This document shows positions 32,104-35,365 of a DNA stretch of 64,000 nt, piece after piece (the first letter of the stretch is position 1; each line of letters starts with the position of its first letter). Origin of the DNA: Bifidobacterium longum subsp. infantis ATCC 15697 = JCM 1222 = DSM 20088 (lineage in GTDB: Bacteria; Actinomycetota; Actinomycetes; Actinomycetales; Bifidobacteriaceae); NCBI RefSeq assembly GCF_000269965.1, contig NC_017219.1:1054001-1118000 (forward strand). The letters are read 5' to 3'. The notes below the pieces were generated by a model. It was not told the DNA's origin, did not search any database, and was given only the letters and a program-made list of their open reading frames with translations. A program made the translations under genes and the position numbers.

Positions 32104-33171
32104 GTGTCATCTACGCAGTTCGACGGCGATATCGACTCCTTCGTCTCCTATCTGAAGTCCAACCGCGGCCTGTCAGCGAATACGCTCAAAGCGTATCGCG
32201 CGGATCTCACGGCATGCCTGCACCTGTTCGAGCTGCGCGGCGTGACCGATCTGAACGAGATCACGCTGGATGATCTGCGCAGCTGGATGGCGGTGGAATC
32301 GCGCGATCACGCCCGCAGCAGCATGGCCCGCAAAACCGTGGCCGTGCGCGGGTTCTTCGCGTGGGCCTATGAGCATGGGCTGACCGCCACCGACCCGGCC
32401 GCCACACTGATGACTCCCTCGATTCCCAGCACGCTGCCCGCGGTGCTCACCGAATCCCAGGCCGAGCAATTATTGGATGTCGCTGAACATGCCGTTGCAA
32501 CAAACCAGTACAAGGACGATGGGGGAGCGGCAGCCGCGTCCGGCAGCGGCAAGGCAGCTGGCAAGACAGCTGATAAGTCGGCCGATACCGTAAACCGCAG
32601 TGAGGCACCCGCCCGTGCAGACAAGCGCGACAACGCCCGAGTCACCGCCGAATCGCAGCGCAACGCCGCGATTCTCGAACTGCTGTATGCCACCGGCATC
32701 CGTGTCGCCGAACTGGTGTCGATGGATATCGCCGACATCGACTTCTCCAATCGCACCATCAAAGTCACCGGCAAAGGCAACAAGCAACGCGTGGTGCCGT
32801 TCGGACTACCCGCCCAGCGTGCGCTGGAGACTTGGCTGGAACAGGGGCGGCCGGTACTGGCCCGTACGGCAACGGATGCAGTCAAGTCCCGTGCTGCCAA
32901 CGCCCTGTTCCTCGGCGCACGAGGCGGCCGTATCGACCAACGCATAGCCCGTGACATCGTGCACAGAGCGGCCCGAGAGGCCGGCGTGCCGGACATCAGC
33001 CCCCATGCGTTGCGTCATTCCGCCGCCACGCACATACTGGACGGCGGTGCCGATTTGAGGGAGGTGCAGGAGATGCTCGGGCATTCCTCCTTGAAAACTA
33101 CACAACGCTATACGCACGTCTCCATCGAGCAGCTCAAGAACCGTTACGGACAGGCCTTTCCGCGGGCATGA
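32104..33171 (+). CDS. xerC: Site-specific tyrosine recombinase XerC
   Basis: 355-aa partner of XerD. Catalytic residues: Arg200 (ATGIRVAEL), Lys224 (GKGNK), His301 and Arg304 (HALRHSAATH), His327 (LGHSSLKTTQ) and Tyr336 (RYTHV). Residues about 137-184 are a low-complexity Ala/Gly/Lys/Asp insert between the core-binding and catalytic domains, which explains the extra length compared with about 300 residues. GTG 32104 has GGAGGA upstream. Resolves chromosome dimers at dif with XerD and FtsK. Confidence 0.93.
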   Translation: MSSTQFDGDIDSFVSYLKSNRGLSANTLKAYRADLTACLHLFELRGVTDLNEITLDDLRSWMAVESRDHARSSMARKTVAVRGFFAWAYEHGLTATDPAATLMTPSIPSTLPAVLTESQAEQLLDVAEHAVATNQYKDDGGAAAASGSGKAAGKTADKSADTVNRSEAPARADKRDNARVTAESQRNAAILELLYATGIRVAELVSMDIADIDFSNRTIKVTGKGNKQRVVPFGLPAQRALETWLEQGRPVLARTATDAVKSRAANALFLGARGGRIDQRIARDIVHRAAREAGVPDISPHALRHSAATHILDGGADLREVQEMLGHSSLKTTQRYTHVSIEQLKNRYGQAFPRA

Positions 33172-33237
33172 CCACTATGTGGACATTGGTTAACAAACTC
33201 AGCAAAGACTGAACCTAGCCGGCAAGAACCCCTGAAT

Positions 33238-33265
33238 TTTACATGGGTGTAACAAAAAATACACT
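33238..33265 (+). promoter_or_regulatory. Candidate sigma-70 promoter of oppA
   Basis: TTTACA (33238-33243), 16-bp spacer, TACACT (33260-33265). It predicts a leader of about 150 nt that contains the alternative-structure element. Confidence 0.5.
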
Positions 33266-33304
33266 GCTTGTCTCCCAAGTGCGCAAAAATGACAGGTAAT
33301 CAGC

Positions 33305-33389
33305 AACGGGGTTGGATTGTTCGAGACATCGTGAGATGCAAGTCTCACGGTGACGGGGAATCCAGCCCCGTTCGCATGAGGCGGGGCTG
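33305..33389 (+). ncRNA. Structured oppA leader with two mutually exclusive folds
   Basis: Fold 1: AACGGGGTTGGATT (33305-33318) pairs with AATCCAGCCCCGTT (33359-33372), 14 bp with one G-U, closing an inner hairpin CGTGAGA/TCTCACG (33330-33336 with 33343-33349). Fold 2: CAGCCCCG (33363-33370) pairs instead with CGGGGCTG (33382-33389). The two share 33363-33370 and cannot coexist. This is the layout of a riboswitch or protein-controlled leader, but I recognise no known class. oppA's AGGAG follows at 33412. Confidence 0.55.
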
Positions 33390-33424
33390 AGACGTCCTGC
33401 AACCTAATGAATAGGAGAAATCAT

Positions 33425-35065
33425 ATGAAGAAGAAAGCTCTTGCTTTCGCTGCCATGGCTTGCTCCGTGGCCATGCTGCTGAGCGCCTGCGGCGGCTCCA
33501 ACAGCAACGCTGCCTCCGGTAACACCGCTGGCTCCAACATCATCACTGCGTACAACTCCGAAGCGCAGAACCCGCTGATCCCGGGCAACACCAACGAAAC
33601 CGGCGGCAGCAAGCCGGTCGGTCTGCTGTTCTCCCAACTGGTCTCCTTCGACAAGGATGGCAAGGCTTCCAACGAAGTGGCTGAGTCCATCACCCCGAAC
33701 GCTGACGCCACCCAGTACACCATCAAGCTGAAGTCCGGCTGGAAGTTCACCGACGGCACTCCGGTAACCGCTGAGTCCTTCACCAAGGCCTGGTCCTACG
33801 TGGCCAACGCCAAGAACGCCCAGAAGTGCTCCTCCTTCTTCTCCGCCATCGCCGGCTATGACGATCTGCAGAAGGATGGCCTCAAGGGTGACGAGCAGCT
33901 CTCCGGCCTCAAGGTCGTGGACGACACCACCTTCACCGTTGACCTGAACCAGTCCGACTCCGTGTTCCCGATTAAGGTCGGCTACCCGGCCTTTGCCCCG
34001 CTGCCGGAATCCTTCTACAAGGACCCGAAGGCCTTCGGCGAGGCTCCTGTGGGCAACGGCCCGTACAAGTTCTCCAAGTGGGACCACAACAAGGAAATCG
34101 CCCTCGTCAAGAACCCTGACTACAAGGGCAACGAGGACGTCAAGAACGACGGCGTGACCTTCAAGGTCTACACCGACGACTCCGCCGCCTACCGCGACAT
34201 TCAGGCCGGCAACCTCGACGTGATGGAATCCGTCCCGGCCGCCTTCACCAAGACCTTCAAGACCGACAAGAAGGTCCAGGCTTACTCCGAGGCCGGCTCC
34301 GTCATCCAGACCTTCACCATCCCGTCCTCCCTTGACCACTTCAAGAACGACGAGGAAGGCCAGCTGCGTCGTCAGGCCATCTCCATGGCCATCAACCGTG
34401 ACCAGCTCATCGACAAGGTGCTCAACGGCAACGCCACCGCCGCCACCGAGTTCACCTCCCCGAAGACCCCGGGCTACTCCGACTCCCTCAAGGGTGCCGA
34501 CAACCTGAAGTTCAACGCCTCCAAGGCCAAGGAACTGTGGGCCAAGGCTGACGCCATCTCCAAGTACGACGGCCAGCTCACCTTCTCCTACAACGCCGAT
34601 GGTGGTGCCAAGCCGATTTACGACGCCGTCGTGAACCAGCTCAAGAACAACTTGGGCATCGACGCGGCCACCAACCCGATCCCGACCTTCCAGGAATTCC
34701 GTGACGCGATCACCAACCGTCAGATGAAGGGCGCCTTCCGTACCGGCTGGCAGCCTGACTACCCGTCCGCCGAGAACTACCTGTGGCAGCTGTACTCCAC
34801 CGCTGCTGCTGATGGTAACGGCTCCAACGATGGTGACTACAAGAACCCGGCCTTCGATGACCTGTGCAAGCAGGCTGCTGCCGCTTCCAGCACTGATGAC
34901 GCCAACAAGCTGTACCAGCAGGCTGAGGAAATCCTTCTCAACGACCTTCCGGCCATCCCGCTGTACTACTCCAACGCCTCCGGTGTGGCTTCCCTCAACG
35001 TGAAGTCCGGCTACGCCTTCGATTGGCAGAACCTCCCGACCTACACCGAGATGTCCAAGAAGTGA
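33425..35065 (+). CDS. oppA: Oligopeptide ABC transporter substrate-binding lipoprotein
   Basis: 546-aa extracytoplasmic SBP_bac_5 family lipoprotein. The signal peptide MKKKALAFAAMACSVAMLL ends in the lipobox LSAC with the acylated cysteine at residue 22. Family core: PNADATQYTIKLKSGWKFTDGTPV, VGNGPYKFSKWDHNKEIALVKNPDYKG, RRQAISMAINRDQLI and GWQPDYPSAENYLW. AGGAG lies 8 nt before ATG 33425. A strong terminator follows, so oppA is probably made in excess over the permease genes, as is usual. The codon bias is that of a highly expressed gene. Confidence 0.95.
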   Translation: MKKKALAFAAMACSVAMLLSACGGSNSNAASGNTAGSNIITAYNSEAQNPLIPGNTNETGGSKPVGLLFSQLVSFDKDGKASNEVAESITPNADATQYTIKLKSGWKFTDGTPVTAESFTKAWSYVANAKNAQKCSSFFSAIAGYDDLQKDGLKGDEQLSGLKVVDDTTFTVDLNQSDSVFPIKVGYPAFAPLPESFYKDPKAFGEAPVGNGPYKFSKWDHNKEIALVKNPDYKGNEDVKNDGVTFKVYTDDSAAYRDIQAGNLDVMESVPAAFTKTFKTDKKVQAYSEAGSVIQTFTIPSSLDHFKNDEEGQLRRQAISMAINRDQLIDKVLNGNATAATEFTSPKTPGYSDSLKGADNLKFNASKAKELWAKADAISKYDGQLTFSYNADGGAKPIYDAVVNQLKNNLGIDAATNPIPTFQEFRDAITNRQMKGAFRTGWQPDYPSAENYLWQLYSTAAADGNGSNDGDYKNPAFDDLCKQAAAASSTDDANKLYQQAEEILLNDLPAIPLYYSNASGVASLNVKSGYAFDWQNLPTYTEMSKK

Positions 35066-35106: not shown

Positions 35107-35138
35107 AAAGGGCGAGGATCGCAAGATCCCCGCCCTTT
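35107..35138 (+). terminator. Rho-independent terminator after oppA
   Basis: AAAGGGCGAGGATC pairs with GATCCCCGCCCTTT (one mismatch) with a GCAA tetraloop, followed by a T-run. Confidence 0.9.
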
Positions 35139-35365
35139 TTGTTGTGTGAGGGGTGCTTGCTCACGCCATCGGGAACCAAGTTAAAGTATCCACTATCCGA
35201 CCGCAACCATGGGCATATCCACCAACATTGCCCAATCTCAAACCTTGCGTTAACGCAAATTTACATATCACAGTCCGGGCATGCGGTAAACTGTCGGAGT
35301 ATTTATCGACCGGCGGGGGCGTACTATACCCTTTCTGGCCGGTCTAGGAAATAAGGAGCAACCGT
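35139..35365 (+). promoter_or_regulatory. oppB promoter region with long-range hairpin
   Basis: About 230 bp without a gene. GACCGGC (35308-35314) can pair with GCCGGTC (35338-35344), enclosing TACTAT, a possible -10 box at 35322-35327. AAGGAG precedes oppB. This gives oppBCDF its own promoter after the oppA terminator. Confidence 0.4.

Follow-up and report, generated by a model that had tools for sequence, protein, structure and literature searches.

Stem-loops at or near the 5′ end of an mRNA, before the ribosome site, occur in the leaders of Escherichia coli ompA and papA and of Bacillus subtilis aprE, three cases that we take from titles in the reference list of PMC3997798. According to passages of the same paper, RNase E of model bacteria acts preferentially on a 5′ monophosphate that is accessible rather than base-paired, and RppH of B. 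subtilis requires at least two unpaired 5′ nucleotides. ANTAR-target RNAs, which carry dual hexaloops with A1 and G4, have been reported in Actinobacteria including Bifidobacterium longum (excerpt of PMC8164766). The 5′ UTRs of highly transcribed B. breve genes have a mean length of ~100 nt (excerpt of PMC5746004).

Here, we analyzed the leader of oppA in a 64,000-nt stretch of the B. longum subsp. infantis ATCC 15697 genome (hereafter the window; positions are counted from its first letter). As in ompA, papA, and aprE, the leader has a stem-loop at or near what is probably the 5′ end of the mRNA, before the ribosome site. It differs from them in its two hairpins, the genus-wide covariation, the link to one gene, and a −10-like hexamer at a near-constant distance; its effect on stability is a proposal, and homology to those leaders is not expected. 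ANTAR-target RNAs likewise comprise two hairpins in a leader, but the oppA leader lacks the A1/G4 hexaloops.

The oppA Locus

The genes and signals that frame the leader were as follows.

32104..33171, plus strand: upstream gene, read by us as a XerC/D-like tyrosine recombinase (Pfam Phage_integrase, 152 bits; Phage_int_SAM_1)
33413..33417, plus strand: ribosome-binding site AGGAG (alignment columns 225–229, each conserved in 67 to 70 of the 70 leaders)
33425..35065, plus strand: oppA, family-5 solute-binding lipoprotein (Pfam SBP_bac_5, 256.3 bits), with the start codon ATG at 33425
35107..35140, plus strand: terminator-like hairpin 3′ of oppA, GC stem plus U5 (sequence and fold)

OppB-, OppC-, and OppDF-like genes were found 3′ of oppA by Pfam search, and the hairpin at 35107–35140 lies in the 300 nt that separate oppA from oppB. 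This predicted hairpin suggests a separate oppA transcript, and expression of the binding protein may be separate from that of the permease genes. The B. infantis family-5 binding protein Blon_0922 was very abundant on every carbon source tested (excerpt of PMC3582569), and it is possibly identical with the oppA product of the window. An opp operon of B. lactis A6 was up 2.0–5.2-fold in stationary phase (excerpt of PMC8876546).

Fold of the Leader

Two hairpins made up most of the predicted structure.

33300..33379, plus strand: hairpin P1, 34 bp, −51.2 kcal/mol (folding, covariation, and RNAalifold); the length of its upper arm varies among species
33381..33400, plus strand: hairpin P2, 7 bp with a 6-nt loop; all eight modelled pairs have changes on both sides

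The region 33270–33430 had a minimum free energy (MFE) of −68.1 kcal/mol (z −5.45), and none of 200 shuffled sequences was as stable. Folded from 33298 to the base before the ATG, the leader reached −65.2 kcal/mol and consisted of P1, P2, and a weak hairpin of 4 bp that covers part of the ribosome site. The base of P1 extends to 33300–33302/33377–33379 (UCA/UGA) and has two one-nucleotide bulges on its 3′ side; P2 is formed by GCGGGGC (33381–33387) and GUCCUGC (33394–33400).

The initial annotation had proposed a structured leader 5′ of oppA, and this observation is real: the structure exceeds chance both in comparison with shuffled folds and in the covariation of P1 and P2. The 14-bp rod with one G-U that it placed at 33305–33318/33359–33372 was borne out, while the hairpin inside the rod, described there as 7 bp, had 11 bp in the MFE fold. 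Its second hairpin, an 8-bp match of 33363–33370 with 33382–33389, is present as sequence complementarity; the stable hairpin is the overlapping 7-bp P2 instead.

Conservation and Covariation

A DNA search with positions 33170–33434 gave matches in 30 of the 112 genus genomes. About half of these matches span little beyond the ribosome site and the first codons; the loci reach further upstream. Alignment A1 (MAFFT) contained 27 of the 30 loci (without L009, L019, and L022) and the window, and the scored model comprised 16 bp of the P1 base and 8 bp of P2, 24 pairs in all. In A1, 83.9% of the cells were paired vs. 77.5% in shuffles, and double-sided changes occurred at 14 of the 24 pairs. The covariation was 0.312, compared with 0.203 ± 0.011 in shuffles and at most 0.158 in slid registers. 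The number of further pair types was no higher than in shuffles (34 vs. 31.6; 76/500). Some of the P2 mismatches in A1 were alignment shifts by eye (L008, L010, and L011).

Alignment A2, with 73 rows, was fitted to the covariance model R1 and hence leans to the model. It included three antisense matches (L005, plus; L006, minus; L004, plus), which were kept for the pairing score and RNAalifold and excluded from the −10, U-run, all-pairs, and unpaired-column counts. Here 87.6% of the cells paired vs. 72.8% when shuffled, 19 of the 24 pairs changed on both sides, and the covariation reached 0.463 (shuffled, 0.206 ± 0.008; slid, at most 0.121). The structure that RNAalifold itself predicted from A2 had 16 pairs, all belonging to P1 or P2, 14 of them with double-sided changes. 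Among the held-out loci (41 rows with no row of the R1 loci and no L009, near-copies such as L022 and L061 being retained), 86.9% of the cells paired and 19 of the 24 pairs had double changes, in a fit that leans to the model as well.

In a weighted scan of all possible pairs (69 distinct rows, effective number 46.8), the top three helices were P2 (0.784), the P1 base (0.535 for P1), and the upper stem of P1. Six of the next 11 printed helices were shifted registers of P1. The best helices other than P1 and P2 joined the P1 3′ arm to the ribosome site (0.186) or to the P2 5′ arm (0.177).

The P1 stem-loop is thus conserved at the RNA level in Bifidobacterium. Its length ranged from ~15 bp in L023 to 34 bp in the window, and its loops differed among species, which indicated that the conserved feature is a stem at that place. 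The letters of the P1 base, UCAGCAA/UUYGCNUGA, were conserved more than pairing demands, and the two one-nucleotide bulges recurred in many leaders. Both features would suit a protein-operated leader, in which a regulator binds the P1 base or the P1–P2 junction and controls the translation or decay of oppA mRNA. However, one or both bulges were absent in L073 and L077, the bulged letters varied, the loops were unconserved, and the ANTAR type was excluded (see below); we regard such a regulator as quite unlikely.

Competing Pairing and Known RNA Families

The initial annotation interpreted the leader as a ligand switch with two exclusive states, P1 and the hairpin 33363–33370/33382–33389. The alternative hairpin pairs at all eight positions in the window and in L001, but it is not kept in relatives; in A1, 52.1% of its cells were paired. 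Its covariation (0.117) lay below the shuffled mean (0.145), and the register slid by +1 gave 0.187. Forcing the alternative fold cost 16 kcal/mol (−49.3 vs. −65.2 kcal/mol), and its probability was 0.0 at the one pair tested. Cross-pairing between P1 and P2 appeared in the all-pairs scan in another register only, as the eighth helix, far below P2 and P1. Prefix folds placed the competing strand at nt 85–92, whereas P1 was nearly complete at 80 nt, that is, before the competing strand is transcribed. The compensatory changes that the annotation had asked for therefore fail for the alternative hairpin and are present for P1 and P2, and the switch by exclusive pairing is not supported, its competing hairpin being much less stable and without covariation.

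A conserved unpaired core was sought among columns that were occupied in ≥80% of the 70 rows and in which a single letter made up ≥80%; only column 5 (A) and columns in 216–233 round the ribosome site were found. Loops without conserved residues are unlike a ligand-binding RNA. The annotation had recognized no known riboswitch class, and Rfam agreed, with no match at the gathering score for the window and 20 relatives. In positions 33100–33450, all three Rfam matches were sub-threshold. The best was freshwater-2 RNA (RF02980; 33330–33427), which scored 25.2 bits (E 0.066) and so fell short of the cut-off of 49.9. The ANTAR target was dismissed as well, since none of the 70 P1 loops and none of the 70 P2 loops had the A1/G4 hexaloop. 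Among the matches listed in open-licence PMC papers, no account of the oppA leader was recognized. Two exclusive conserved structures, an unpaired ligand core, and membership of a described class, the marks of a riboswitch, were all missing from the leader. The initial interpretation is consequently supported in part, for the conserved structured leader and not for the switch, which we consider extremely improbable.

Promoter, Start Site, and Upstream Motifs

Four elements were located between the recombinase gene and P1.

33237..33254, no strand assigned: TTTTACATGGGTGTAACA, which holds the −35 element of the initial annotation; possible operator (by eye)
33268..33272, no strand assigned: TTGTC motif, whose TGTC lies 16 nt 5′ of the start of the −10 hexamer (from the TGTC counts below)
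33285..33290, plus strand: probable −10 element AAAAAT (in relatives CACAAT, AACAAT, GACAAT, and similar), from its position
33297..33299, plus strand: predicted transcription start, perhaps A 33299, 7–9 nt after the −10 element; 60 of 70 leaders have this A (column 5)

The −10 hexamers were scored with our own weights, loosely after TATAAT, and a cut-off of 10. A hexamer scoring at least 10 was found within 23 nt 5′ of P1 in 55 of 63 distinct leaders, compared with 8 of 63 in a more distal upstream window of the same size, and its spacing to the GC pairs of P1 was 10–13 nt in 52 of 63. The eight leaders below the cut-off included the window (AAAAAT, 9.8) and its nearest relatives, L001 and L002. 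The −35 element of the window was also poor; in the short-P1 group L023–L029, a TTGCAT −35 element was plain by eye. The near-constant distance between the −10 hexamer and P1 suggested that P1 is probably at the 5′ end of the oppA transcript. Since the conserved −10 element lies directly 5′ of P1, the leader is probably ~127 nt long and not about 150 nt as first estimated. That estimate came from a promoter TTTACA-N16-TACACT, which does stand out in the window (9 of 12 matches; shuffles had 0.4 ± 0.8 such sites) but is not conserved: TTTACA was seen in 9 of the 30 leaders read, the window included, and TACACT in the window only. In L002, its counterpart was TACGCT at a spacer of 15.

TGTC lay precisely 16 nt 5′ of the −10 hexamer in 29 of 63 leaders; two control windows gave 3 of 63 and 2 of 63. 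Eighteen of the 29 had TTGTC and four had GACAAT (TGTC-N12-GACAAT); an exact palindrome with the −10 element was rare. Two leaders of another genus (L250 and L261) carried TTGTC-N11-GACAAT. The TGTC motif may be the operator of a regulator. By eye, TTTTACATGGGTGTAACA was nearly intact in L001–L007 and altered in L008–L011. On the reverse strand it reads GTTAC-N6-GTAAA, which resembles the GlnR box, whose consensus we took from an excerpt of PMC10704036. This predicted site possibly fits the presence of opp genes in the Streptomyces GlnR regulon, as given in the same excerpt.

Distribution and Link to oppA

At E ≤ 1, R1 had matches in 74 of the 112 genus genomes. At E ≤ 1.1e-5, it matched 52 places in 50 of the 112 Bifidobacterium genomes, and all 52 were directly 5′ of an OppA-like start (tblastn; L013 by eye). 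OppA-like proteins were found in 100 of the 112 genomes at E ≤ 1e-40, some of them surely paralogues. Forty further regions upstream of oppA, mostly from genomes without a strong R1 match, were collected, one of which (L140) precedes a tandem copy. Among the 38 that were read by eye, many had a divergent rod at the same position and in the same order, and some, e.g., L117, L134, and L140, had none. The Gardnerella-type leaders L118, L126, and L128–L131 had an AT-rich rod of ~95 nt that starts AUCAACGAAGA, with no clear P2.

Fold stability was calculated for 96 upstream regions with 60 shuffles each, some of the regions possibly being paralogues or having misplaced starts; 69 were at z −2 or lower, and 12 failed to reach −1. 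In a genome control, the oppA hairpin ranked sixth of 214 upstream regions, which came from a crude ORF caller, several of the higher-ranking ones looking like coding sequence.

Weak R1 matches were inspected at 14 loci. Five of them (L071, L075, L085, L087, and L093) precede oppA, and nine (L088, L090, L091, L092, and L094–L098; E 0.0017 to 0.064) do not, with no sign of a multi-gene regulon among the 14. One of the nine, L095 (G008:C1:1713377-1713488), is a very long hairpin directly 5′ of a gene read as a putative inorganic pyrophosphatase, which suggests that leaders of this type may also precede other genes. Outside the genus but within the family, a rod and a second hairpin in the same order were seen by eye in 4 of the 19 loci read, L243 and L245 in one genus and L250 and L261 in another. 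A match in a further genome of another genus (G139; E 5.3e-4) was far from that genome's best OppA match and was dropped.

A Proposed Protective 5′ Leader and Its Rivals

The leader seems to resemble a fixed protective cap more than a switch. We propose, with a probability of roughly 0.55, that P1 and P2 together serve the oppA mRNA as a static, protective 5′ leader. Transcription from the promoter directly 5′ of P1 would start at about A 33299, so that the first nucleotides of the message would be tied into P1 and about one to four 5′ nucleotides would be left unpaired. Enzymes that depend on a single-stranded 5′ terminus (RNase E/G, RNase J, and an RppH-type enzyme, which the host presumably has) would act poorly on such an end. 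P2 would act as spacer and insulator that keeps P1 apart from the ribosome site, the latter being in weak structure only. The expected outcome would be a long-lived oppA mRNA for a binding protein that the cell needs in large amounts. We base the shield on the covariation of P1 and P2, their link to oppA, the spacing of the −10-like hexamer, the 5′ UTR lengths and the work in model bacteria cited above, and on the RNase E/G and RNase J families, both of which were above the cut-off in four of four genomes checked.

Several observations speak against the shield. Three or four unpaired 5′ nucleotides would leave access for an RppH-type enzyme. The −10 and −35 elements of the window are weak, the P1-base letters are over-conserved, 12 of the 96 regions are above z −1, the Gardnerella-type rods are without clear P2, and the oppA hairpin is only sixth in the crude genome control. 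Two features are also left unexplained by it. Of 70 leaders, 23 contained U5–U7 in the 3′ arm of P1. Within the P1 base, a 5′-side G paired with U 64 times and the reverse six times, an asymmetry that could fit a purine-rich initially transcribed strand as well as selection for a terminator.

Both features speak for a promoter-proximal attenuator, the main rival to the shield: P1 would be an intrinsic terminator ~40–90 nt after the start, a protein or signal would permit readthrough, and the clade of the window would have lost the U-run or would use a pause. A GC stem with U6 was seen by eye in L250 and L261 as well. However, 26 of 70 leaders, including that of the window, had no run of more than two U, and the window, which reads CCCCGUUCGC, did not show a GC stem with a U-run. 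A pattern scan, in which the stem can swallow the U-run, detected no plus-strand terminator at P1 in the window, L018, or L025. Known intrinsic-terminator attenuators share the U-run of at least five with the 23 leaders; the oppA leader differs from them in that P1 is almost at the predicted start and no antiterminator is well supported, the best other helices (0.186 and 0.177) being nowhere near P1 and P2. On balance, attenuation at P1 appears unlikely. The U-runs of some leaders are terminator-like enough to raise another reading, that P1 terminates transcription of the recombinase gene upstream and that oppA has its start at another site. Against this, a conserved −10-like hexamer lies between the recombinase gene and P1, and P1 is accompanied by the conserved P2 and ribosome site, which makes the reading very improbable.

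Implications for Bifidobacterium

A switch would have been more surprising, and the evidence is against it. The protective leader makes a claim of its own, namely, that transcription start and hairpin must stay in register. A broader and rather doubtful idea is family-wide RNA control of peptide uptake, in which P1 at the transcript start would serve as a terminator or as a shield acted on by some factor, the first tens of nucleotides would determine the output of oppA, and promoter, fixed-distance TGTC, and hairpin would form one unit. If the protective reading is true, the leader might serve as a part for stable expression in bifidobacteria, and a 5′-end shield would be documented by covariation across a whole actinobacterial genus.
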